From positions 1-64,000 of IMG/VR virus record IMGVR_UViG_3300042569_003487: 64,000 nucleotides of DNA; one strand, 5' to 3'. The notes under the pieces were generated by a model. It had not been told where the DNA came from. It was given only the letters and a program-made list of their open reading frames with translations, and searched no databases. Below are positions 2,371 to 56,955 of this stretch, in pieces. Numbering within the stretch: position 1 is the stretch's first letter; every line of letters starts with the position of its first letter. The stretch is from a virus. The translations under genes were made by a program, and so were the position numbers.

Positions 2371-2820
2371 ACCTGGCAGATAGGTTTAGCTGCGCAGGGG
2401 AGGTACCAGACTAGCACAGATACTGCTACCAGGACCGGCTGGAGAACAGCCCTGGTCAGCTGGCCAGGCTAGCCCAGGGGCTGATACAATACTGCTCCTG
2501 GCTGCTCCTGGGGACTGTCCCTGGCTGCCCTGGGGACCGTCCTGGCAGCTGCCCCCAGGTGACTCCAGGGGTACTCCAGGGGACTGCCAGGCTGCTCCCA
2601 GGTGACCCTGGGGGACTACCCAGGGGCTACCCCGGGGGCTATCCCTGGTATAGTTTTTTGTAGCCAGGGGGAAGCAAGCATTTTTACTTTTTTCTCTTTC
2701 CTCCCCGGCCTGGAAGCTGTGCTGGAACCTTTTTGGCTAGACGGACTTTTATCCCGAGCTTTTCCTAGGGGCATTTCTACTGGTAGAGATTTTCCCCTGG
2801 CCTGGGGCAGGTTATCCAGG
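2371..2820. repeat. GC-rich CCWGG-repeat island in divergent intergenic region
   Basis: This stretch lies between divergent gene blocks and is far richer in GC than its surroundings. It contains about 22 copies of CCAGG or CCTGG. Between 2464 and 2668 they start at 2464, 2474, 2497, 2507, 2520, 2529, 2541, 2555, 2565, 2576, 2587, 2598, 2607, 2620, 2644 and 2664. The spacing is mostly 9-14 and averages about 11 bp, close to one helical turn. Open frames on both strands here lack the base composition and protein character of their neighbours and are not called genes. A replication origin, a protein-binding array or a packaging signal are candidate roles; none is proven. Confidence 0.7.
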
Positions 2821-2862: not shown

Positions 2863-3288
2863 ATGAACAAGATTAAATCGTTTAATGAATACCTAGTAGA
2901 GTCTGCTGATATAGCTCAGCTTGCTCAAGACCTAGGTGGTACAGTAGAACCTGTAGAGGGCCAGACAGACTGGTCAGCAGTTAGAGGTTATCTAGATGTT
3001 AACCGTGAAAAACTTAAAGAAACCCTTATAAAGATAACTGGTGATAGAATAACTGCAATGGTAGTTATTAAGGTTGCCGATATCTATGCTGAAGACAAGC
3101 GTGATGGGGTAACTCCAAATCCAGACTGGTTAGGAGAAGCTCCAATTGTAGATGAAAACACGCCAGATCTACAAGAAATGGTTAAGGTGGTTATTGCGGC
3201 TATTCAGCGTAATCTAGCTAAATCAGATCAAGCTACCCTTGCTAAGTTGAGTACTGCAGGTAAAGGGATTAAAACCAGCCGTTATTAA
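2863..3288 (+). CDS. Putative capsid-targeted internal protein, 141 aa
   Basis: The N-terminus MNKIKSFNEYLVE/SAD matches the T4 internal-protein leader, with a predicted prohead-protease cut after E13 (LVE/S). The mature part is a soluble, mainly helical domain that I do not recognise, ending in basic KGIKTSRY. It is the first gene of a late operon with two more leader-bearing genes. The inference is a protein packaged in the head; its function after injection is unknown. Confidence 0.75.
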   Translation: MNKIKSFNEYLVESADIAQLAQDLGGTVEPVEGQTDWSAVRGYLDVNREKLKETLIKITGDRITAMVVIKVADIYAEDKRDGVTPNPDWLGEAPIVDENTPDLQEMVKVVIAAIQRNLAKSDQATLAKLSTAGKGIKTSRY

Positions 3289-3291
3289 CCT

Positions 3292-3795
3292 GTGAAGTAT
3301 ATTAAACCCTATCGACTAGTAGAATCCGCAGATCCTTTCTGGACAGGCTATGAAAGACTTGTTGATCTAGGTATGATTGATATTGAAGACTGGGTCAAGA
3401 TTAAAGATGATGTTGTCCTACTCGTTAAGGAGAGGCTGGCTAGTCACTATCCTGAATTGGATGTAGAGAAACTTGCATTTGATGAGATCCGTATCTATCA
3501 AAAGGGTAAAGGCGGCAGAGATCCTTATTATAGTGTCTATATTGATAAAGGCGTTAACCATAGTTATAAATTATGGAATTGTCGCTTAATAGTTCGTTTT
3601 CAAAACGCAACTGGCAGAGCTGACAGTAGTCGTCTTATTAAGGTACCCGATTATTTCTGGACCCGACCAATCGGAGGCTATGCAGATATTCCCGATACAG
3701 TAGCACAAAGTAAGTGGATAGCTGACGAAATTATTGGGTGGATGGAAGAGGTCTTTGTACCATGGATCGGCGTTGAAGTAAAAGAACAGGACTAA
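3292..3795 (+). CDS. Putative capsid-targeted internal protein, GTG start
   Basis: Translation likely starts at GTG 3292, 3 nt after the previous stop. This gives the leader MKYIKPYRLVE/SAD with a predicted cut after E11. Residues after the leader contain RLVDLGMIDIEDWVKIKDDV, a short helical motif also found in the genes at 3798, 9693 and 10390 and resembling the SHOCT helical pair. The rest (167 residues in all) is unrecognised and mixed alpha/beta. Head packaging is inferred from the leader, the operon and the late promoter upstream. Confidence 0.72.
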   Translation: MKYIKPYRLVESADPFWTGYERLVDLGMIDIEDWVKIKDDVVLLVKERLASHYPELDVEKLAFDEIRIYQKGKGGRDPYYSVYIDKGVNHSYKLWNCRLIVRFQNATGRADSSRLIKVPDYFWTRPIGGYADIPDTVAQSKWIADEIIGWMEEVFVPWIGVEVKEQD

Positions 3796-3797
3796 TT

Positions 3798-4403
3798 ATG
3801 AAGTATATCACTAAATTTAGATTATGGGAATCTCAAGAAGAGGTTGATACGGCTAAACGTCTCCTAGACCTAGGCCTAATGGAACCCCAAGATTATAAAC
3901 AAAAATTACGGGAGCTTGGTTGGGACAAGCGGTATCGTAGCCAATTTGTTGAAAACCTTGAAAAGCTATTTGTGGATCTAGGTTTGGAATGGAAAAACTG
4001 GGCAACCGATCGTCAAAAAGCAAACGGTACTGTACTCCTTAAATTTAGTCCAGCTGATGCAGCCGAGTTAATCTTTACTGCAACAGTACCCCCAGGTTTA
4101 ACACCACGTCAAGAGGCCCGATTCCAGAATATTAAGGAACGTCTCCTAAAGGTAAAGCGTGAAATGGAAATGGATGTGGAAGTTAGAGGCCGACTTGCCT
4201 TTGAATACTGGATTTTCCCAGGCTCATTCCGCCCAAGCGGTCACTTTGGCGAACCTACCTCTAGCCAAACTGTTAATTTTGATGGTTCCACTGATCCTCA
4301 ACACTCAATGGCCAGATTCCTCTACCAAGTTGCTCTTGATGCAGACGCAAAGGGCTGGATCTGGAATCCTCAGCACCCCCACTATAATTTTGCACGTCGC
4401 TAA
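3798..4403 (+). CDS. Putative capsid-targeted internal protein, 201 aa
   Basis: The leader MKYITKFRLWE/SQE predicts cleavage after E11. It is followed by the SHOCT-like segment RLLDLGLMEPQDYKQKL, shared with the preceding gene, so the two are probably paralogues that diverged downstream. The C-terminal part is soluble and not recognised. It is the last gene of the late operon and is followed by a hairpin terminator. Confidence 0.72.
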   Translation: MKYITKFRLWESQEEVDTAKRLLDLGLMEPQDYKQKLRELGWDKRYRSQFVENLEKLFVDLGLEWKNWATDRQKANGTVLLKFSPADAAELIFTATVPPGLTPRQEARFQNIKERLLKVKREMEMDVEVRGRLAFEYWIFPGSFRPSGHFGEPTSSQTVNFDGSTDPQHSMARFLYQVALDADAKGWIWNPQHPHYNFARR

Positions 4404-4467
4404 CCTTTGGCCTCAACCCCCTGGCGCGGGGCGCAATCGGGCGAATCTGTTGTAACTGCCTAAAAAA

Positions 4468-5572: not shown

Positions 5573-7165
5573 ATGGAAATTAAAAGATACCAAAATTGGT
5601 TATTTGAAAAGCAAAATCCAAAAAGCGATTGTGGCTGTTCAAACCATGGTTTTATTACTGAAAGTATTAGCTATGATGAGGTTATGGCAAACCATAATGA
5701 ATTAAATTCACAGCCGATTACCGAGGCAGGAACCCCAACTGACCCGTTTGTTGCAGGAAAGGGCGGAAGCTCTGGCGATATATTATGTCTTTATGCAGCT
5801 GGATTCTATTCAGTAGACCACACTGATGCCAAAGGTAAAACCTTTACTAATTCTGCCAAATTTAAGCCAATTATTGATAAAATGATTGCGTTTCTTAAGG
5901 CTGAACCTAAAAAATCATGGGTTTCTGAAGTAGTTATTAGGTCTAGCGAATCGATTGTTCCAAACTTTGATATGGAAAAGCAAACTGGAGCAAAAAAGAT
6001 TGGATGGCTATCAGAACAACGCAAACAAAAGATTCAAGCCTATGTTAATGGAATAATTCAACCATTAGTGGCAGATGGAACTGTTTCTAAATTGCCAACA
6101 GTTAAACTTATTTTCGAAGAGGCTAAAACCTTAACTGAACCATCTGGTGGTTGGGATAACTATCGAGCTTGGAATAAGGAAACTGACCCTGTCAAAAAAG
6201 CGGCACTGCCAAACCATGCAGAGTATTCTAAACTAAAGCAAGGTTATGATGCTGATCAAAAAACGACTGTTCAATTTAGAGTAATTCAAGATTTAGGTGC
6301 TGCCCAATGTACAGTTGGAGTTAGAATTGTAGTTAGTTACGACGATCCAAAAAATATTGGTCATGGCTGTAATTTTGCAAATTATGAAATAACTGCAAAT
6401 GGTATTCCATTAACCACAGCTGGTTCAAGTGGAGCTGGACTTCCTGGACAATCAGTTGGCGGTTGGATTCCAAAGGGAACTGCCTATGCAAGTATGAGTA
6501 ATAGCCAAGAGAATGGTGATGTTCTTTATAAGAGCGGTGCAAAGGACGCAACTTCTGGTGGTGTACGAAAAAATTTCTTTTGGCTTCACGACACAGCATT
6601 AATTAAGCGTATTGTCGCGGCAGGAGATGGAAAGTCTATAATTCTTAGAGCAAAGTGTATAGTAAATGGAGCAGGATTTGGAGGCAAGGGTGGCTGTCAT
6701 AGTGATGCACCACACGTATATGTATACTTATCAAATGGAACGCTAGCCAAAGGGTTTGAACCAAGTGATGCACATATAACTTTAAGAAATGGAGGAACTT
6801 ATCCTAAAACAAATGACGGTGTAATTGCTGAATTGGATCTATGTGGAAACAATAGAGTTGCACAAACTGCGGCTGTAGCAAGTAGCGAAAAGACAAAGGG
6901 CGCTGCACAAACTGGTCCAAAATTAACTGGAGTTAAATTATCATTTGCTGCAAAAAAGGTTGGAACATTAAACTCTGAACAAGCTCTTCAAAATTTAATG
7001 AGTAACGGCTCCGTTACTAAGCGTGCAGATAACACATATTTAGTAAATAAGGACTTTACTGCAGGTGAAGGTGATGTTAAATATATGACTGGCGATATTA
7101 TTAATAAAATTTTACCAAAGGGATCAGCCGTAACCAGACCTGCTACGCCAAACGCTCCAAAATAA
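5573..7165 (+). CDS. Putative virion protein with several prohead-protease-like sites
   Basis: A 530-residue protein with leader MEIKRYQNWLFE/KQN. Two more (I)xE sites follow within the first 55 residues (FITE/S and PITE/A), so the N-terminus may be trimmed stepwise. A cysteine pair (DCGCSNHG) lies between the first two sites. The body has a region around residues 100-170 with SSESIVPNF and LSEQRKQKIQAYV, loosely like an OmpA-type helix-strand pattern, then glycine-rich beta segments with several cysteines. It is transcribed alone from a late-type box and followed by a terminator. A head or ejected protein is inferred; no family is recognised. Confidence 0.7.
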   Translation: MEIKRYQNWLFEKQNPKSDCGCSNHGFITESISYDEVMANHNELNSQPITEAGTPTDPFVAGKGGSSGDILCLYAAGFYSVDHTDAKGKTFTNSAKFKPIIDKMIAFLKAEPKKSWVSEVVIRSSESIVPNFDMEKQTGAKKIGWLSEQRKQKIQAYVNGIIQPLVADGTVSKLPTVKLIFEEAKTLTEPSGGWDNYRAWNKETDPVKKAALPNHAEYSKLKQGYDADQKTTVQFRVIQDLGAAQCTVGVRIVVSYDDPKNIGHGCNFANYEITANGIPLTTAGSSGAGLPGQSVGGWIPKGTAYASMSNSQENGDVLYKSGAKDATSGGVRKNFFWLHDTALIKRIVAAGDGKSIILRAKCIVNGAGFGGKGGCHSDAPHVYVYLSNGTLAKGFEPSDAHITLRNGGTYPKTNDGVIAELDLCGNNRVAQTAAVASSEKTKGAAQTGPKLTGVKLSFAAKKVGTLNSEQALQNLMSNGSVTKRADNTYLVNKDFTAGEGDVKYMTGDIINKILPKGSAVTRPATPNAPK

Positions 7166-9692: not shown

Positions 9693-10103
9693 ATGAAATA
9701 CGCTAAACCCTTTACTCAATTTATAAGTGAAGCTCGAGCAGATATGACGCCAACTGAATTGGAAATGCTGGATAGAATCGAAGCTAGAACTAGAGAAGCT
9801 TATCCTGAAACCTCGCCTGACGAAAAGAAAATTGACTCCAGACTTAGAGACCTAGGTCTTGCTCCTAAAGAAGAGTTCGATGACCGTTGGGATAATATGG
9901 TCGACGAGTGGGGTAGTGATCCTGAAATTAGCCGCGCAATTGATGTACTTAAGTCTCGTACAAGTGCAATCATGAACAAATACATTGACTATGGCGATCC
10001 AGAAGATGAGGCCAATTACGATCAGCGTAGAGAATGGATTTGGGAAGCTTCAATCGATGATATTGGATTCTTAGAATTTATGATTGCCCAAGGCGATATC
10101 TAA
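9693..10103 (+). CDS. Putative capsid-targeted internal protein, 136 aa
   Basis: The leader MKYAKPFTQFISE/ARA is the closest in the window to the classic T4 internal-protein leader (FIxEA), with a cut after E13. The mature part is acidic and helical and includes RLRDLGLAPKEEFDDRW, the SHOCT-like segment shared with genes at 3292, 3798 and 10390. It ends in FLEFMIAQGDI and overlaps a convergent gene by 4 nt. Head packaging is inferred. Confidence 0.75.
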   Translation: MKYAKPFTQFISEARADMTPTELEMLDRIEARTREAYPETSPDEKKIDSRLRDLGLAPKEEFDDRWDNMVDEWGSDPEISRAIDVLKSRTSAIMNKYIDYGDPEDEANYDQRREWIWEASIDDIGFLEFMIAQGDI

Positions 10104-10318
10104 TTTTTAACTGGCACCTTACGTGCAACTTGCGGTTTTTCTATTTTTATTTTAATTGTGTCTCCAGCTTGATGAGGAGTTCGGCAATACACAGTTCCTT
10201 CAATACAGGTTTCTGCATCATATACATTATATTGGTAGGTACCTTGAAAATCTGGTGTACCTGTTCCAGATGTTACGATTAATACTAGATACGTAACAAT
10301 TTTTCCTAATTCTATCAT
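10100..10318 (-). CDS. Small protein with N-terminal hydrophobic segment
   Basis: The 72-residue protein has a hydrophobic stretch at residues 5-17, a short Gly/Thr linker, then a beta-rich domain with two cysteines (ETCIEGTVYC). It may be membrane-anchored or exported. The stop overlaps the end of the convergent gene. A GTATAAT box lies 6 nt upstream of the ATG. Confidence 0.5.
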   Translation of the reverse strand: MIELGKIVTYLVLIVTSGTGTPDFQGTYQYNVYDAETCIEGTVYCRTPHQAGDTIKIKIEKPQVARKVPVKN

Positions 10319-10324
10319 AATTCT

Positions 10325-10331
10325 ATTATAC
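10325..10331 (-). promoter_or_regulatory. GTATAAT box upstream of 10100-10318
   Basis: Minus-strand GGTATAATAG lies 6 nt before the ATG at 10318, the same short spacing as at 2361, 9627, 31697 and 39934. Confidence 0.5.
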
Positions 10332-10361
10332 CTAATCTCTGGTAAAGAGTATTAGATCTGG

Positions 10362-10368
10362 ATAAATA
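10362..10368 (+). promoter_or_regulatory. Late-type promoter box ATAAATA
   Basis: ATAAATAACTACAAATAA lies 21 nt (from the heptamer end) before the ATG at 10390. It would drive the four leader-bearing genes 10390-14583. Confidence 0.7.
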
Positions 10369-10389
10369 ACTACAAATAAGATATACTTA

Positions 10390-11019
10390 ATGTCATACTT
10401 CAAAAAATTTGGTGAATTTCTTAATGAAGATGAATCTTCGGAAGAACAATTAGCCAAACTAGCTAGATTAAAGGACCTTGGTTTGCTTGACACAGATCAA
10501 TATAGACAAGATTCCAAGAATATCCGAAAGAATGCAATGCTTGCTGCTAAAGACCGAGGAGACTATGCAGGAACAGCTCTTCCAGAAATTAGAGAAATAT
10601 TAGATTCTCCAGAAGCTCAACTACTAAGGGACAAAGGTCTTGAAGTAGTTTCAAGTCCAACTCAACTCTTAAATGGTACCCTTGTTTGGGCAAAACCTGG
10701 TTATAGAAGATCAGATGGTTGGGGTCTAGGATTTTTTCCTGGCCCAAGTAAAATACGCAGAATGACTCCAAAGGGAATTAATATTGGAGTATGGGGCCGC
10801 AGAGTAGGTTCAATGGATGTTGAAATGAAAGCTATTCCAAAATCAGCATATTCTAATGAGGCTGAATTTTATAGAGTTGCAATGAAGTGGGCAGCTGAAC
10901 ATATCGATTGGGATCAATTAGAAATGGCTGAAAGACAGAGCCGCGAAGCTTGGAGATATTACGTAAAAGGAAAAACAAAACAAGGTTATTTTAACGATGA
11001 GAATAATAGAATCATTTAA
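10390..11019 (+). CDS. Putative capsid-targeted internal protein, 209 aa
   Basis: The leader MSYFKKFGEFLNE/DES predicts a cut after E13. Next comes the SHOCT-like motif LKDLGLLDTDQYRQDS. The remaining 160 residues are mixed alpha/beta with many basic residues and aromatic patches (GWGLGFFPGPSK) and are not recognised. The end overlaps the next gene by 23 nt, so translation is probably coupled. First gene of a late operon ending with a strong terminator. Confidence 0.75.
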   Translation: MSYFKKFGEFLNEDESSEEQLAKLARLKDLGLLDTDQYRQDSKNIRKNAMLAAKDRGDYAGTALPEIREILDSPEAQLLRDKGLEVVSSPTQLLNGTLVWAKPGYRRSDGWGLGFFPGPSKIRRMTPKGINIGVWGRRVGSMDVEMKAIPKSAYSNEAEFYRVAMKWAAEHIDWDQLEMAERQSREAWRYYVKGKTKQGYFNDENNRII

Positions 11020-12628
11020 TAGCTGGAAACGTTCGGACAGACTCTTAAACGAGAATGTTCAGGCAGCTAAACAATATATGTTAAAACGTTTTGCTCAAGC
11101 AAAAGGAATTGAATCTTCTGAAATTACGCCAGAGGATCAAGCTAGAATTTTTGCAAATGAAGATTATAAAAAAGTTTTACAGTTAATTCAGCCACTTCCT
11201 GGTTATGCATCAACCTTTGTCAAATTTAAATTTGATCATAGAGTTTCATTTGAGCAATTAGCAGAATTGCTTGAGAAAATTAAAGCAAATTCCCAATTTT
11301 TAGGGGAATTATCAATGCCAATTATTGAATTTCCAAATCAAAAGGAAGTAAATGGAGTTTCTCCATTTGAGGCGCTAATAGATGAGTTTAATCAAATTGA
11401 AACCCGTCGTAAAGCAAAATGGATTCTTAACGAATTACCAGGAAATTTACGTAGAGCAGCTAGAGAATTACCAAAAGAAGATCTACAGAGACTTTTTAAT
11501 GCAGCAACTATTATGAATGATTTGGGTCAAGAAGTTAAAGTGCGTTTGTTAAAAAAGGCAAAGGCTTTTACTAATCCAATTGATTTTATAGTTTATGCTG
11601 AAAATTATGTTAAAGGTTACCTAAACTCTGACGTTCAAAGTAAAATTGATAAATTAGAACAATTAGAACCAGAAGGCTCTGTGATTTATGCAGATGATCG
11701 TTACCTAATGTTAAGCGCACGTACAGAAAAGGCGCAAAAGGAATTATGCTCAGTTGCAAACTGGTGTATTAATAGAGGAAGTTTTAATAATAGAGGTTAT
11801 GGTGGAAGCGCTGTACAAATTAATACATTTGATTTTGGTTTACCACCAACTGATCCTCATCACCTAATTGGTACAACTATTTCATATGAAGGAAAGGTTA
11901 CATATAGTCATGATATTAACGATAGGAGTGTTAAGACAACTGATGATATTGCAACACACCTTAAGAAATTTGGTTATCCGGATAAAATGATTAACACCTT
12001 AATTCAGGTTTTTCCAATCGAAGCCATGATTAAAAAGGTAATTACTGAACTTAGCATTGATAAAAAATCTCCGATTCAAGTTCTTGATTCAGTTATTAAA
12101 GCAAGCTATAAAGTAAATCCAGAAGACGATCAAGAATCAGCTAGAGTAATTCTTAATATCCTAATGGAGAGAATTGCACCGGCAGTTAAAGAAGAAGAAA
12201 TTATTGCACTTTACATGAAGTTTGGCGTAATGTCAATTTTCTCTGCTAAACTATTTAATATGTTATTACCTAATATTAATCCTCAAACAAGATCCGAGGT
12301 TATTCAAAATGCAAAGGCGATTCTTGATGAAATTAAAGGTTATGCAAGTACTGGTTTATTTAAATATCCACAATTGCTAAATGCAGTTAAGAGCGAACCT
12401 AAAATTATAGAATTACTTGGTGAAAGTATAGTAAATGAATTTTATGCAGCTGAACCTGCAATTAAAGAACCTACTACAAAACCTAAAGTAACTCCAAGAC
12501 CAGGTCCAATTCCAACTAAAAAACCATCAGTTAACCCTGAACCAAGCGCAACTGCAGAAGATGTAGTTAATGTATTTTTAGCTGAATTAAAAAAATTAGG
12601 TACTACACCAAAGGAATTCCTTAAGTAA
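10997..12628 (+). CDS. Putative capsid-targeted large internal protein, 543 aa
   Basis: The N-terminus MRIIESFNSWKRSDRLLNE/N fits a longer version of the leader; MRIIESF is shared with the gene at 22634-23710. A central segment (residues about 235-310) reads ELCSVANWCINRGSF and then glycine-rich beta strands (VQINTFDFG, TISYEGKVTYSHD). It brings to mind phage hypothetical proteins with a T-x-W-C motif, but this is a weak match from memory. The C-terminal 60 residues are proline/lysine-rich then helical. Co-transcribed with three other leader-bearing genes. Confidence 0.65.
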   Translation: MRIIESFNSWKRSDRLLNENVQAAKQYMLKRFAQAKGIESSEITPEDQARIFANEDYKKVLQLIQPLPGYASTFVKFKFDHRVSFEQLAELLEKIKANSQFLGELSMPIIEFPNQKEVNGVSPFEALIDEFNQIETRRKAKWILNELPGNLRRAARELPKEDLQRLFNAATIMNDLGQEVKVRLLKKAKAFTNPIDFIVYAENYVKGYLNSDVQSKIDKLEQLEPEGSVIYADDRYLMLSARTEKAQKELCSVANWCINRGSFNNRGYGGSAVQINTFDFGLPPTDPHHLIGTTISYEGKVTYSHDINDRSVKTTDDIATHLKKFGYPDKMINTLIQVFPIEAMIKKVITELSIDKKSPIQVLDSVIKASYKVNPEDDQESARVILNILMERIAPAVKEEEIIALYMKFGVMSIFSAKLFNMLLPNINPQTRSEVIQNAKAILDEIKGYASTGLFKYPQLLNAVKSEPKIIELLGESIVNEFYAAEPAIKEPTTKPKVTPRPGPIPTKKPSVNPEPSATAEDVVNVFLAELKKLGTTPKEFLK

Positions 12629-12629
12629 T

Positions 12630-13925
12630 ATGAAAACACTAAAACAATTTTTACAAGAGGCAAGTTTACAGGGAAATCCTGGAACACCCGATCAATACCT
12701 AAAGGGAGTTGAACGCAGAGCAATGCAAGATGTTCAAGGAACTGAACAAAGACTTGGAAGAGAAATGAGTCAGTTTATGCAATTTGTTTCTCAAGTGCAA
12801 AGAATGCAAACTCCTCAAGTTAAAGCACAATTAGAAAAACTTGCAGAAGATATTATAATGAAAGAGTACGGATCAATCCTAACTCAAACTAAATTAAGTA
12901 TTAAATTTGCAAAGGCTGGAGAAATCCAACAAATGATGGAAGAGGTTCCTATGGAAACACCAGAACCCCAAAAAGAAATTGAAGATCAGGCAACTATTTC
13001 AAAAATCCATGCTAGAAAAATTGGTAACGCAATTATGCAAGGCGAGGCTAAAAATGCAAAGCGTATGTTAGCTTTACCTGAAACCATGGATGGTATGATT
13101 AAAATTTTTGGACCAGCTGACGCTGCAAAAATGGTAGATCTTCTTAAGAAAATTACAGACATTGCCTCTGCTCTTGATTGGAGAATTCCAATGGAAGTTC
13201 AAAAGCAAATGTGGGAAAGAGATAAAGGCGGATTTAGTGGATCAGTTAAAGTTGATTTTAAACCAGTTGAAGCTGACGAAAAAACTGCAGAGGATCTTAT
13301 TAAATCTCTAGAAAGTGGTGATCTTGAAACTCAAGAAATAGAAGATACTTTAAATGAAATGGAGCCTACTATTACTGCAATTGGTACAGATTTTGCAATG
13401 CTACTTCATGAAGCAATTAAAGGAATCTATAAATTAATTGGAACTGCTTCTATTCCAGATGATGAAGAAGAAGCTGGAAAGGTTGTTGCAAATACTGGAA
13501 CACTTAGTGATGAATTAGAAGATTTAAGATATGGACCCTACTTAGCAGCAGATCTTAGAGATTTTGTAAATCGATTTACCAATTCAAGTTCAGTTGAAAA
13601 TATCAGAGAACACGTTTTTGGAAAATTAATGATTCTTGCAAAAGAGGAAACTCAAGCATTTTTACAATTAATGAAAGAAATTTTTACTGAAGATGCTGGA
13701 GCAATTAATAAAATGAAATCGATTGTTTCAGAAATTGAACAAGAAATTAAGGATTGGGAACGCAGTCAATTTGATGAAGAGGTTCCAGACCTTGGAGTTG
13801 AACCGGCTGCCACTGAAACTGACCCATCTCAATTAAGTAAAAAGGAAATTCAAGCCTTAATTGATGCAGCACTAGATGCTGGAGATTACGCTGAAGTTGG
13901 AAAACTTGCAAAATATTTAGATTAA
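12630..13925 (+). CDS. Putative capsid-targeted helical protein, 431 aa
   Basis: The leader MKTLKQFLQE/ASL predicts a cut after E10. The body is almost entirely helical and acidic with a methionine/glutamine-rich early part. It ends with a segment (IQALIDAALDAGDYAEVGKL) like the helical UVR-type ends of several small proteins here. Its composition resembles T4 core or internal head proteins rather than an enzyme. It starts 1 nt after the preceding stop. Confidence 0.7.
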   Translation: MKTLKQFLQEASLQGNPGTPDQYLKGVERRAMQDVQGTEQRLGREMSQFMQFVSQVQRMQTPQVKAQLEKLAEDIIMKEYGSILTQTKLSIKFAKAGEIQQMMEEVPMETPEPQKEIEDQATISKIHARKIGNAIMQGEAKNAKRMLALPETMDGMIKIFGPADAAKMVDLLKKITDIASALDWRIPMEVQKQMWERDKGGFSGSVKVDFKPVEADEKTAEDLIKSLESGDLETQEIEDTLNEMEPTITAIGTDFAMLLHEAIKGIYKLIGTASIPDDEEEAGKVVANTGTLSDELEDLRYGPYLAADLRDFVNRFTNSSSVENIREHVFGKLMILAKEETQAFLQLMKEIFTEDAGAINKMKSIVSEIEQEIKDWERSQFDEEVPDLGVEPAATETDPSQLSKKEIQALIDAALDAGDYAEVGKLAKYLD

Positions 13926-13926
13926 T

Positions 13927-14583
13927 ATGAAAATTCAAAGATTTAAACAATTTATAAATGAAAGCGAGGAATATCTCGATGAACCTGCAAAAGAAATGTT
14001 TAATGAGCTTCTAACTCAAATTGCAGATGAAATAGACGGTCAATCTGGCTGGATGGCTTCTGTAAATGAAAACTCTAGTACCCTACGTATTGACCAAGAT
14101 TGGAATATTGATGATTTAAACTATGAAGGCGATGAGCCTAGAGTTTATGCAAGTTATACTGCAACCTTTAAAATTGCTTTTCAAGATGATTCAACTCAAT
14201 TATCCCCAGAAGTAGTTAGACTTTGGAAATTAGGATTAGCGCCAATTACTGAATTAATTAAAGGATTCGATCATATTTGGGGTTTTAGTATTGATTCAAA
14301 GGATGTCCCAGAATTAGATATTCAAGAAGGAAATAGCGAATTTGAGTTTATGTCAATTGAAGATTTGACTGGAGGCGCAACTGCTGATTTAACTGATATT
14401 GAAGCTTTTGCAACTGACTTAATTGAAACTCTTAATGGTTGGTTAGACGAACAAACTTATATGTTACACGATAGAGTTCAAGAAGAATTAGACATGATTT
14501 CTGGTTATGGTGATGACGACGAAGAAGAGGATGACGATGATTATGAAAACGATGATGACGATTTTTCTGAAGACGAAATTTAA
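13927..14583 (+). CDS. Putative capsid-targeted acidic protein, 218 aa
   Basis: The leader MKIQRFKQFINE/SEE predicts a cut after E12. The mature protein is strongly acidic and ends in about 30 residues made mostly of D and E. Such tails could act as DNA mimics or scaffold parts. The gene is last in the late operon from 10390 and lies before a terminator. Confidence 0.72.
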   Translation: MKIQRFKQFINESEEYLDEPAKEMFNELLTQIADEIDGQSGWMASVNENSSTLRIDQDWNIDDLNYEGDEPRVYASYTATFKIAFQDDSTQLSPEVVRLWKLGLAPITELIKGFDHIWGFSIDSKDVPELDIQEGNSEFEFMSIEDLTGGATADLTDIEAFATDLIETLNGWLDEQTYMLHDRVQEELDMISGYGDDDEEEDDDDYENDDDDFSEDEI

Positions 14584-14635
14584 GATAGTTGAGGTTTGAA
14601 GACCTCACTTAGGACCGGGACTAGTTCACGGGTTT

Positions 14636-14668
14636 GGGCAGGGAATTCGCTACTCTCTGCCCTTTTTT
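14636..14668 (+). terminator. Rho-independent terminator
   Basis: A 6-bp GC stem (14636-14641 with 14657-14662) is followed by six T. A second hairpin (14591-14606) lies just upstream. Confidence 0.75.
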
Positions 14669-15146
14669 ATCTCTGCTTAGTATTACCTACAAATTGATTA
14701 AAGACGTGCTGAATGAGCCACTGTTCAACATTTGGAATAGTTTGTAAAAATTCCAATTCCCATAAATAGCAGTCAGCCTCTTCTGCATTTCCACTAAGAT
14801 AAACTATACTGTTCCTGGAGATCCATAGGTGTTTGCTCTCGTGAACTATTACTGCAGCTATATTGTTTATTGATCCCAACTTAAAATCATCCCTAGATAT
14901 TACGATGGTTCCCTTTGCACTGCCCTTTCCAGGTTGGGTCGTTGATACTTTTCCATTCCACATTGAAATATGATCACATGATTCTTCAATCATTTGCCAA
15001 TGTTTAGGTGAAGTTTTTTTAATTAAGACCAGTGCTGAATCTACTTGAGTAGACCAACCATCTCCTCCTTTATCTACTACAATTTGAGCATTAACCAAAT
15101 TTGTAATAAAAAATAGAATAATTATAATTATAATATGTCTCAACAT
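14667..15146 (-). CDS. Exported HExxH-type metallopeptidase candidate
   Basis: A hydrophobic signal peptide ends VNAQ (about residues 1-21). The mature domain contains AAVIVHESKHLW, matching the HExxH zinc motif (HESKH), and about 23 residues later EEADCYLWELEF, a suitable third acidic ligand region. This arrangement is typical of zinc-dependent peptidases acting outside the cytoplasm. The protein is 159 residues, short for a peptidase. Its substrate is unknown; a cell-envelope target is an inference. Confidence 0.55.
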   Translation of the reverse strand: MLRHIIIIIILFFITNLVNAQIVVDKGGDGWSTQVDSALVLIKKTSPKHWQMIEESCDHISMWNGKVSTTQPGKGSAKGTIVISRDDFKLGSINNIAAVIVHESKHLWISRNSIVYLSGNAEEADCYLWELEFLQTIPNVEQWLIQHVFNQFVGNTKQR

Positions 15147-15156
15147 AGCTAAAAAA

Positions 15157-15178
15157 AGCCGAGGTTTTACGCTCGGCT
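15157..15178 (-). terminator. Rho-independent terminator
   Basis: A 7-bp stem (15157-15163 with 15172-15178) is followed, on the minus strand, by seven T. It ends the transcript of the gene at 15190-15813. Confidence 0.85.
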
Positions 15179-15189
15179 CTAAATTTTAA

Positions 15190-15813
15190 TTAAAGATCTT
15201 TTGGTTCTTTGCCGGTCGCCTTTCTTATAAAAGCAGCTGCCGCTGCTTCAGGATCCTTTGCCCAACCAAAATATTTTTTAGATTTTTGTTTAAAGTCCTT
15301 TGCTCCTTTTTCCTGATCTTTAAGCATTTTTTTCATTTCTGCTTTTTTTAGATTTGGAAATTTCTTATCTGCATCTTTTAAAACTTCTTCTCTTTTCTTT
15401 TCTAAGATAATAAAGTCTGAGCATCTCATTACTCTCTTACTTTCAAAACCATCATATGAAGGCTCGTCGTCTAATACGGAGTCCATCCACTGCTGTTTTT
15501 TAAGGTGAGATTTTTTGGCCTTTACTTCAGCAGCTTCTCTACGTTTAATATAACCCGTATCTTCTGCTGCTAATTTTTTATGTAGATCTAGGATTCTAAC
15601 TGCCAATTCTTTTTTCATTGGATGACCTTTAGGAAGCTCTCTAAGTTTTGCTTGTAGTTCCTTTAGTTCAGCTTCATCTCCGGAACCATATATAGGTTCG
15701 TCTTTTTCTACTGGTTCAAACTCGTCTTCAAAATCAAATTTTGAGGCTGGAGTAGCGTCGAAGTCGTCTGGATTGAACTCCATTTCGTCTTCATCATGGA
15801 ATCTAGGTTTCAT
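15190..15813 (-). CDS. Charged helical protein with an internal leader-like segment
   Basis: A 207-residue, very charged protein: acidic first 50 residues, then lysine-rich helices. At M129 it contains MRCSDFIILE/KK, which looks like the capsid-targeting leader seen at the start of other genes. So the gene may have an internal start at 15429 giving a 79-residue packaged protein, or the full protein may be a scaffold cut there (E138). The C-terminal 70 residues are helical and basic (KQKSKKYFGWAKD). A scaffold or core role is plausible but unproven. Confidence 0.6.
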   Translation of the reverse strand: MKPRFHDEDEMEFNPDDFDATPASKFDFEDEFEPVEKDEPIYGSGDEAELKELQAKLRELPKGHPMKKELAVRILDLHKKLAAEDTGYIKRREAAEVKAKKSHLKKQQWMDSVLDDEPSYDGFESKRVMRCSDFIILEKKREEVLKDADKKFPNLKKAEMKKMLKDQEKGAKDFKQKSKKYFGWAKDPEAAAAAFIRKATGKEPKDL

Positions 15814-15854
15814 TGGAATAGACTCGTTATTTTAGTTTATCTATCTTAGTGACG

Positions 15855-15861
15855 ATAAATA
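15855..15861 (+). promoter_or_regulatory. Late-type promoter box ATAAATA
   Basis: ATAAATAATAA lies 28 nt before the ATG at 15890. Confidence 0.6.
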
Positions 15862-15889
15862 ATAATGTAGTACAAGATAATTAAATCAA

Positions 15890-16741
15890 ATGCAAAATAT
15901 GCAAGTTAGACAATTTACAGACTGGTTAGGCGAAGCAGTGGCTCCAGCAAAGACTTATACAAAAAAGCTTTCTGAGCTTAATCCGCAGCGAAAATACATT
16001 GGAGATACCTATAATACAGATCTTTTTTTAAGATTTAAACACCTGGCTTCAATTAGAGACAAACATGGAAAAAGAATTGGTGTTGAGAAATGGTTTGAAC
16101 TTGCCCAACTTGAAGATAAGGGATTCTATTCTGCTGTATTGGCTGACCAAATGGGACAGCCCGATGTTCGCGAACTTTGGAGAGATATGATGGGCAGAAA
16201 TGCAAGTAAAGTTAAAGGTCAAGTTAATTTTAAAGATCCATTTAAAGGGAACGAAGATACTGAAGATGAAGTTAGAGATTTAAGTCTAAGTGAAAGCGTT
16301 GAAGAACCTATTACAATGCAGTCAAATCTAGATTCAACTTGGACTTTAGTTATTACTTATCCAAATGATTCATTATATGCTAAAGCTCAGCCATACTTTG
16401 AAAAGCTTGGAATTGCATTTGCAAATTTGGCAACCCAAACTGTTTATTTTGATGGATCGGAAGTAAGCGAAGCCTATTTCACAAAGGATCATATGCTTGC
16501 AGTTGAAGCACATGAAATTGGACACTCTATTGCAAATCATCAAGGGGAACCGTATTATTCTAAAAGACAGGAACAAGAAGCAGACTTTATTGGAATCAAT
16601 TTGCTAATTCAAAATTCTTTAACTAAAGCTGCAAATATTCTAGCAGAAAGATTCTCAAATCATTATAATATTGAATATACAAAACTGGCTGATTCTGAAC
16701 AACTTACTGAACTACTAGAAGATTACTTACTAGATAAATAA
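15890..16741 (+). CDS. HExxH metallopeptidase-like protein with capsid-targeting-like leader
   Basis: The leader MQNMQVRQFTDWLGE/AVA predicts a cut after E15. The C-terminal half contains VEAHEIGHSIANH, with the zinc motif HEIGH at residues 208-212, and about 18 residues later RQEQEADFIG with E230, the usual place of the third ligand in gluzincin-type peptidases. A peptide-cleaving enzyme is therefore likely. The middle (residues 60-150) is helical and unrecognised. Late box upstream and membrane protein downstream. If packaged, it would be a protease delivered into the host or envelope. Confidence 0.7.
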   Translation: MQNMQVRQFTDWLGEAVAPAKTYTKKLSELNPQRKYIGDTYNTDLFLRFKHLASIRDKHGKRIGVEKWFELAQLEDKGFYSAVLADQMGQPDVRELWRDMMGRNASKVKGQVNFKDPFKGNEDTEDEVRDLSLSESVEEPITMQSNLDSTWTLVITYPNDSLYAKAQPYFEKLGIAFANLATQTVYFDGSEVSEAYFTKDHMLAVEAHEIGHSIANHQGEPYYSKRQEQEADFIGINLLIQNSLTKAANILAERFSNHYNIEYTKLADSEQLTELLEDYLLDK

Positions 16742-24298: not shown

Positions 24299-25095
24299 TG
24301 TTGTAGACTTGGAACCCAATGTGTAGTTCTGCCGTCTGCTGTTTTTTCTCTAATTACTATATTTCCATGAGGATCTGCACTCTTTCCATAGACTTCAAAT
24401 TCAAAAACAAAGTCGCCAGTTTCACCAGTAACTTGTTGATAATTTCTAATACTTGCTCCGCCCTGTGCATATGACGCCCTACTAATTAATTTAGAATAGT
24501 CCCATAGTAATTGAATCTCATTATCGGTAAGATCCTTAACCAATCTATGCGGGGAAATCTTAGAACGATATAACATTTCACATTTAATATAGTTTCCAAT
24601 TCCTGCAAAAAGCCTCTGGTCCATTAGCGCTTCTACAACAGTTTTATTTGGAACCCTCTCGAATGATCTAATCGTATTATAAACAGATGCAGTTGTGTCG
24701 TTTAGCGCATCAACTCCTAGGGTTTTTAATTTTGCGTCCAATTCAACCTTACTTGCAAACTTAAGGGTACCGAATCGGCGCTGATCAATAAAAAACAGTT
24801 CAAGACCATCATCAAATGAAAGTTTAATGTGTGCATGTGGTTTTTGATAGATTGACCAAAACCCGCTCATTCCCAATGTAATCCAGATAGACATGGCGCC
24901 TTCCAATTCTAACCAGATGAATTTGCCTTTAACTCCGCCTCCAACTACCTCCAGGGGCAGCTCCAGGGCTCCCAGGCCAACTGGGGGAGTCTTTAAGAAG
25001 CGTCCACCAAGTATTTCTACACTAGTTAGTTTTCTATTAATACAATAATTTCGCAAACCTTCATATACGCGTCTGCACTCTGGTCCTTCTGGCAT
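24295..25095 (-). CDS. mutM: Formamidopyrimidine-DNA glycosylase / Nei-like
   Basis: It starts MPEGPE, the Fpg/Nei signature in which P2 is the catalytic nucleophile and E3 assists. The middle has the helix-two-turn-helix region (VVEALMDQRLFAGIGNYIKCE), and QGGASIRNY follows. The C-terminal hairpin (VYGKSADPHGN ... GRTTHWVPSLQ) has the Fpg finger layout and its arginine, but all four zinc cysteines are missing, so it is a zincless finger as in NEIL1-type enzymes. It removes oxidised bases and nicks DNA. Codons for residues 40-48 contain three CCAGG-type pentamers. A GTATAAT box lies 15 nt upstream. Confidence 0.9.
   Translation of the reverse strand: MPEGPECRRVYEGLRNYCINRKLTSVEILGGRFLKTPPVGLGALELPLEVVGGGVKGKFIWLELEGAMSIWITLGMSGFWSIYQKPHAHIKLSFDDGLELFFIDQRRFGTLKFASKVELDAKLKTLGVDALNDTTASVYNTIRSFERVPNKTVVEALMDQRLFAGIGNYIKCEMLYRSKISPHRLVKDLTDNEIQLLWDYSKLISRASYAQGGASIRNYQQVTGETGDFVFEFEVYGKSADPHGNIVIREKTADGRTTHWVPSLQQ
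24951..24976. repeat. Small CCAGG cluster inside a gene
   Basis: CCAGG occurs at 24951, 24963 and 24972 inside the glycosylase gene, spaced 12 and 9 bp, repeating the style of the island at 2371-2820. Confidence 0.5.
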
Positions 25096-56346: not shown

Positions 56347-56366
56347 TTTGGCGAATTCTTTTTTGT

Positions 56367-56373
56367 TATTTAT
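56367..56373 (-). promoter_or_regulatory. Late-type promoter box ATAAATA
   Basis: Minus-strand ATAAATAACAAA lies 20 nt before the ATG at 56346. It starts the long terminase/structural operon leftwards. Confidence 0.65.
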
Positions 56374-56432
56374 TAGGGATAATTGCGACTTGGAAAAATT
56401 TTACCTTCGCTCTAGACCAAATAGATAATTCT

Positions 56433-56446
56433 TTAGTATTATACTA
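56433..56446 (+). promoter_or_regulatory. Likely promoter of the tmRNA gene
   Basis: TAGTATTATACTAA lies just before the tmRNA 5' end, with TATACT about 10 nt upstream of position 56455. It is nearly palindromic, so on the other strand it also reads GTATAAT. Confidence 0.5.
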
Positions 56447-56454
56447 AGAAATAT

Positions 56455-56921
56455 GGGGCTGTTTTGGCGTTTGACAAGCGGTCGTAGTTCTTTGAATGCA
56501 GGCGGAGTTAGTATTGGAAACTCCTTAATAACCTATACGAATAATAACTGACAATAAGTCAACTTGGACTTTCGAAGACGCTATGTCTTTCGTAGGTGCT
56601 GATTTAGCAGTAGCTGCCTAATCGCTCCCGTATCACTCATGGGACTTTAATAAGAAGTGAAAGCTAAATCCAGGTGGCTCCCTTAATAGTCAAGGCTGAC
56701 CTTGAGCATCTGATCGTAGTCGATCTATACAGGGGGCGAAAGAGTTGGAGTAACAGGTCGGAGCTCTACTAAATAATTTCGAGACCAGGTTGTTTTTCTG
56801 ATGGGTTTCCCACATACATCAAATCAGATATTTTGTCCAATTTAGAAAAAATGGACTAAGCCTGTGAATGAATTCATTGAAGTAGCCGGATTGGACACGG
56901 GTTCGACTCCCGTCAGCTCCA
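56455..56921 (+). ncRNA. ssrA: Transfer-messenger RNA (tmRNA)
   Basis: The 5' end GGGGCTG pairs with CAGCTCC (56914-56920) as a 7-bp acceptor stem with one G-U, followed by discriminator A. A 5-bp T-stem with loop TTCGACT (56897-56913) precedes it. GCAGGC (56498-56503) pairs with GCCTGT (56860-56865) to form helix 2. A first pseudoknot is clear: 56504-56509 with 56519-56524, and 56511-56517 with 56532-56538. The tag frame ends GCT GAT TTA GCA GTA GCT GCC TAA (56598-56621), giving ADLAVAA, close to the usual ALAA end. The resume codon is likely near 56550, so the tag may be about 23 residues. CCA is not encoded (CTA follows). tmRNA with SmpB rescues stalled ribosomes and tags products for proteolysis. 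The gene is about 467 nt, longer than the usual 360-400. Confidence 0.92.
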
Positions 56922-56942
56922 CTACTGTATTTTTCTAGGTGA

Positions 56943-56949
56943 ATAAATA
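56943..56949 (+). promoter_or_regulatory. ATAAATA box with short spacing
   Basis: ATAAATAACC lies 6 nt before the ATG at 56956, just after the tmRNA gene. It would give a near-leaderless transcript. Confidence 0.45.
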
Positions 56950-56955
56950 ACCTAT

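Follow-up and report, generated by a model that had tools for sequence, protein, structure and literature searches.

Why would an AT-rich phage genome keep a dense and regular array of CCWGG pentamers between two divergent operons? The array lies near the start of the window, that is, the whole stretch of 64,000 nucleotides analysed here, which covers positions 1 to 64,000 of the 141,925-base IMG/VR record IMGVR_UViG_3300042569_003487 (phage G000). An earlier, sequence-only reading had described the pentamers as concentrated within AT-rich surroundings and many of them as lying 9-14 bp apart, and this description holds. Positions 2371-2820 contain 23 CCWGG (11 CCAGG and 12 CCTGG) together with a few CCSGG, whereas 2000 dinucleotide shuffles, drawn from the array's own GC-rich stretch, gave a mean of 4.7 (sd 1.9, maximum 11). 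No comparable density is found elsewhere in the record, where the CCWGG total is 189 and the runner-up 450-bp segment has 4. The array has a GC content of 59%, and its core one of 65%, against 35% for the genome. The lattice core (2451-2668) holds 17 CCWGG, with neighbour gaps mostly of 9-14 bp and the others of about two lattice steps. The array occupies a non-coding gap of 509 bp between start codons at 2353 (leftward) and 2863 (rightward). Its description as the only large non-coding divergent region was nearly right: the window has one other large gap, at 56347-56955, which contains a tmRNA gene (56455-56924, + strand; Rfam RF00023, 97 bits). This second gap is the largest protein-free gap of the record, and the predicted tag of the phage tmRNA, VKADLEHLIVVDLYRGRKSWSNRSELY, is unusually long. 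Within the array, coding sequence is ruled out, since single-base indels between G000 and its relative G001 disrupt all reading frames.

All relatives of G000 are metagenomic contigs, and the comparison was made by sequence. G001 (IMGVR_UViG_3300044700_000691; 216,815 bases), which is about 80% identical to G000 over much of the record, carries the array in the same place with 17 CCWGG, 14 of which share alignment columns with window sites; two of the shared sites have a middle A/T swap, and at two further places the sites are shifted by one base. IMG/VR searches through the flanking late gene or through an HTH-like gene of the leftward operon returned only G001. A UvdE gene common to the group gave 80 relatives, and a spacing-tolerant CCWGG pattern run over 40 of their records matched 8. 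Beyond G001, six phages (G011, G017, G020, G022, G024 and G028; G022 is nearly the same as G027 and was counted once) have an array just upstream of homologues of the 101-aa protein encoded by the first gene of the leftward operon. The members of this early gene family are about 95 aa long, and a search for it in 49 records found only G011, where the array is present too. The array is thus kept in all eight distinct phages that keep the 101-aa neighbour gene, and there is no carrier of the gene without it. Each of the eight phages also has the HTH-like gene close by, at most a few kb from the array: in G000, G001, G017, G024 and G028 it follows downstream in the operon of the 101-aa gene, and in G011, G020 and G022 it is found across the array from that operon.

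Arrays also occur in different gene settings in G044 and in G003 (L079), the latter found solely by its CCWGG array and a distant relative by protein comparison; the 101-aa and HTH-like genes are undetectable in both. A three-site run within genes of G014 and a second match in G044 (116898-116941), which lies in a coding-like repeat, were left uncounted. Directly to the right of the G044 array (L351, 4190-4990) there are about 800 bp without an obvious gene, in which the word GGTCTCT occurs about a dozen times, also in inverted form. In the window, a run of three CCAGG lies within a MutM/Fpg-like coding region (24951-24976), and G001 has a similar run. The phage is T4-like, with UvsX, a DnaB-like helicase and T4-type terminase and baseplate proteins, and a member of the Bacteroidota is its likely host, given that Sphingomonas phage PAU, Flavobacterium phage MaF61 and Prevotella Lak phages are among the named phages nearest to it in terminase. 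Among the terminase-nearest named phages (PAU, MaF61, Lak-B5, S-PRM1 and three uncultured giant phages), only isolated single matches and no comparable array were found.

In nine phages the sites are far more numerous than chance would give, and the repeated unit is simpler than the pentamer suggests. The 516-bp window region has 26 CCNGG sites, with mostly A or T in the middle; over nine arrays, the middle base is A in 77, T in 58, C in 34 and G in 28 cases, so that 62 of the 197 sites have C or G. In pairwise alignments the middle base is exchanged at 2 of 17, 2 of 14 and 7 of 10 shared sites, and in the comparison of G011 with G020, where 7 of the 10 shared sites differ in this way, CC and GG are constant. 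A logo of 117 sites contains almost no information outside CC-N-GG, and the words GTGACTCC and CTCCAGGAG are common to many arrays. The unit is better written CCNGG than CCWGG, and its middle base is free.

The sites are held on a lattice with a period longer than that of relaxed B-DNA. In the window the period is 11.2-11.3 bp, with a spectral power of 11.2 and only 0.1 at 10.5 bp; in the core, the power at 11.2 bp is 11.8 of 17, a value reached by none of 5000 random placements. Individual syntenic arrays peak at 11.0-11.6 bp, and the nine arrays combined peak at 11.4 bp (z of about 22, where the null reaches 5.6 at most), with 10.5 bp again almost powerless. Jittering the gaps by 2 bp lowers the combined peak from 66 to 30, and with jitter of 2-4 bp the 11.4-bp peak is abolished, none of 2000 trials reaching the observed value. 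Because the spacing-tolerant pattern served to select several relatives, distances between adjacent sites are biased to 9-13 bp, while the exact period and the register across gaps are unaffected; G000, G001 and G011, which were chosen without regard to spacing, also exceed the null (27/2000 at ±2 bp and 3/2000 at ±3 bp). A long gap makes up for a preceding short one (9, 12, 14, 10; 10, 13, 10, 13), and this compensation indicates a fixed lattice and not tandem copies. Furthermore, gaps above 18 bp tend toward whole lattice multiples (Rayleigh R 0.30, p of about 0.004). The helical phasing proposed earlier stands as phasing, but its period of 11.3-11.4 bp in eight phages, with essentially no power at 10.5 bp, speaks against a protein bound to one face of B-DNA. 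Such a register fits underwound or right-handed wrapped DNA; periods above 10.5 bp are given by plectonemic or underwound DNA (PMC4132750).

Between G000 and G001, the sites of the window's array are 86% identical and the rest of the array 75%, compared with 56-67% at four-fold sites of three or four neighbouring genes and 74% at those of the HTH-like gene. Because identity in the array exceeds that of most neighbouring four-fold sites, the array region is under purifying selection.

The array is bordered by early and late signals. On its left, a putative early-type promoter of the leftward operon (2352-2379, - strand) has its -10 TATAAT near the start codon; the assignment follows from consensus and alignment, and the number of predicted promoters is not above that of shuffles. 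A TATAC block and an upstream AAACYT box can be aligned by eye across relatives, and the GTATAATA form of the promoter also precedes other early genes, near their start codons. The right border (2632-2693, + strand) consists of a GC hairpin followed by a T-rich block ending in ACTTTTTT at 2686-2693. The hairpin (2632-2648) with its T's is terminator-like in both G000 and G001, although such sites are not more frequent than in shuffles. Most arrays end on the right in a T-rich block with ACTTTTTT, blocks of the ACTTTTTT type are also present in G000, G001 and G044, and in several relatives ACTTTTTT pairs with an upstream AAAAAAGTA. Further right, the T4-type late promoter element AATAAATA (2831-2838, + strand) lies about 30 bp upstream of the rightward gene, as it does upstream of many late genes. 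This late gene (2863-3288, + strand) has a capsid-targeting-like N-terminus and is not kept beside the array in more distant relatives. Many late genes (2863-4403, 5573-7165, 9693-16741 and others) share an N-terminus of the MKxIKxYxxLxES type, like a capsid-targeting propeptide. The record has at least five more divergent early/late promoter pairs; these lie close together and have no array, which makes the array an addition that the promoters do not need.

Among the neighbouring proteins, the 101-aa protein (2048-2353, - strand) is predicted to be all-alpha with four helices (pLDDT 79, fair), and its model had no fold match in the PDB at E<=0.001. The HTH-like gene (826-1128, - strand) encodes a small conserved protein, 93% identical in amino acids to that of G001 and 64-71% to those of three further relatives. 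Its resemblance to Cro/C1 HTH proteins comes from weak matches to a Cro-like PDB chain (E=0.019) and Pfam HTH_26 (E=0.03), and an AlphaFold model from two sequences reached a pLDDT of only 38. From its position and this weak similarity, it is a candidate binder of the array. PHROGs and Pfam searches of the array-neighbour proteins named no replication protein. An HU/IHF-type binder was rejected, PF00216 being absent from seven records.

Could the region instead be transcribed into a structured non-coding RNA or a long leader? In AT-rich genomes a GC-rich island is often an RNA gene, and the core, at 65% GC in a genome of 35%, would be such an island, with the rightward strand ending in a hairpin and T-runs at the terminator-like site shared with G001. 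Folding of 2490-2680 (+ strand) exceeds column shuffles (z -5.2), the nine arrays exceed dinucleotide shuffles with z from -1 to -6, and some relatives outfold shuffles in which the pentamers are preserved; palindromic arrays, however, fold well as single strands. Folding of the G000 array is weak against dinucleotide shuffles (z -1.2 and -1.1) and does not stand out when shuffling preserves the pentamers (z -0.3 and +0.9). Folding is also about equal on the two strands (group mean z -1.8 and -1.5), as expected of palindromic DNA, and the structure-conservation index equals that of shuffles in most stretches. For covariation, its z is about 0 in the G000/G001 alignment, a weak result with two sequences only, and an Rfam search of the window matched the tmRNA elsewhere and nothing at the array. 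Keeping one 11.4-bp register across some 500 bp is, furthermore, not a property of RNA, and we regard an RNA as improbable.

The register and the site grammar bear on the remaining explanations as well. Dcm-type methylation, which had been suggested before, was not borne out. CCWGG and CCNGG words are known methylase and restriction targets (Dcm/EcoRII type and ScrFI type, respectively), but the middle base is free, the many CCSGG sites of the relatives fall outside Dcm specificity, and a target array would leave the 11.4-bp register unexplained; the C5-methylase family PF00145 was absent from the G000, G001, G002, G003, L101 and L086 records, with a host enzyme being possible, and the N4/N6-methylase family PF01555 from nine records. 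A methylation or restriction target is hence the least credible of these explanations and extremely unlikely. If a tandem repeat of 11 or 22 bp had expanded neutrally within a permissive gap, this would account for the 21-22-bp units that Tandem Repeats Finder reports at 2496-2606. Yet the spacers differ and the gaps compensate, so that register is kept rather than unit length, and conservation above synonymous sites and retention in all eight syntenic phages also speak against such an expansion, leaving it little credit. The array could alternatively be a strong site for gyrase or another right-handed-wrapping topoisomerase that manages the supercoiling of a large phage genome, with a period above 10.5 bp typical of right-handed or underwound DNA (PMC4132750 for plectonemes). 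The array is, however, longer than one gyrase footprint. Gyrase sites are also not known to require a specific palindrome, and we give this explanation only a slim chance. Scarcely better is the chance of a partition or packaging site, in which an adaptor protein would bind and wrap a centromere-like array comparable to parC of plasmid R1. ParR-parC is resembled in the regular repeats that precede an operon of small genes and in a register of about 11 bp with DNA wrapping (PMC5016525), but it is not obvious why a lytic T4-like phage should need to partition; ParB_N (PF02195) and RHH_1 (PF01402) were absent from nine records, the latter being weak evidence since ParR can be divergent.

With its site grammar, 11.4-bp register, synteny, conservation and non-coding nature, the array is in our interpretation probably a cis-element whose phased sites bind a protein and build up a wrapped, iteron-like nucleoprotein. 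The palindromic CCNGG lattice, with its register of about 11.4 bp, spans 200-500 bp immediately before an early operon. A phage- or host-encoded protein dimer reading CC/GG would load on it cooperatively, one unit per site, and loading would wrap or underwind the DNA into a regular complex beside the early promoter. For the biological role, our leading, though tentative, suggestion is an origin-type region that would fire close to the neighbouring early promoter, and our second choice, which we hold somewhat less probable, is an early/late transcription switch; the two roles might possibly be combined. Neither of the two observations that the sequence-only reading had named as refuting it, an equal density throughout the genome and loss of the region in close relatives, was made. 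That reading had likewise considered a master control region or an origin, and the phased non-coding array between divergent operons is indeed like a control element; the switch in GC skew that might mark an origin was not found, since neither G000 nor G001 has a global extremum at the array.

Lattices of this kind are not confined to the relatives of G000. In a wider scan for four CCWGG at 11-bp steps, with GGWCC at equal spacing as a control, AT-rich, non-identical arrays of at least eight sites numbered 14 for CCWGG and 1 for GGWCC, and most of the 14 come from one podovirus-like family. The control array means that a lattice of this type can also be built from another word. Viruses thus repeatedly carry lattices of 5-bp palindromes, more often of CCWGG than of GGWCC, the other word tested. 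The podovirus-like family (L034, L035, L040, L044, L046, L058, L061, L068, L086, L098, L101 and others), so assigned from portal and terminase in L101, has clusters between operons after terminators in which the number of CCWGG units varies and the middle base flips freely. These clusters are interleaved with ACTGAATG/ATTGAATG repeats, and a second cluster is missing in some members. G002 (IMGVR_UViG_3300032038_000317; L230) has three CCWGG arrays, at 472-513, 4340-4440 and 6999-7145, with periods of about 10.1-10.4 bp (10.4 in the longest), which differ from the 11.4 bp of G000 and its relatives. The GGWCC array in L199 (120-360 of a 15,330-base record) has twenty sites mostly at 11-bp steps, and L199 resembles a Sulfolobus spindle-shaped virus, an identity that is inferred. 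It is conceivable, though we consider it unlikely, that phages as unrelated as the T4-like group, the podovirus-like family and G002 share one widespread wrapping protein and a register code in which only the position of CCNGG on the 11.4-bp grid would be informative.

Our search of the open-access literature found no known phage CCWGG array, and several described systems share parts of the design of the array in G000. Protein p6 of phi29 binds one monomer per 12 bp in a right-handed wrap and serves both replication start and the early/late switch (PMC10899789). The array, at 11.3-11.4 bp, likewise has a register above 10.5 bp and is compatible with wrapping, whereas p6 covers phage DNA broadly and no fixed pentamer reading is described for it (PMC10899789). 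In R1 parC, regular repeats also lie upstream of an operon and are wrapped by an adaptor (PMC5016525), but the units of the array are 5 bp long and tolerate any spacer, and RHH and ParB proteins were not found. In iteron origins of plasmids, initiator sites are arrayed close to a promoter and adjoin A/T-rich blocks (PMC4980987); their iterons are usually long, near-identical direct repeats, while the array keeps only CC-N-GG.

The nearest described situation appears, by analogy, to be oriE of T4, whose iterons are 12 nt long; iteron clusters have been known in T4 and its relatives for decades, with a role described as ill defined (PMC3016281). Both are found in T4-like phages, as evenly spaced short repeats kept syntenically in relatives (for the array, in all eight phages at 11.4 bp), with small genes nearby, in T4 repEA and repEB (PMC3016281). 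The T4 origin also has an early-mode promoter (PMC3016281); beside the array, a TATAAT-type promoter is predicted from consensus and alignment. The array differs in being non-coding, GC-rich and palindromic (CCNGG), with free spacers and an 11.4-bp period. In T4, repEA and repEB are antisense inside gene 5 and the oriE mark (79355) is also within gene 5, so the array may be said to work like oriE and not to be a member of it. As a landmark in the sequence, the array would help to locate control or origin regions of large phages known from metagenomes only. Furthermore, it offers a clearer natural series than the T4 iterons, in which eight phages carry the element at one conserved position beside one operon, with a site of five letters and a register that can be measured, and a series with so defined a site and register makes a direct test possible.
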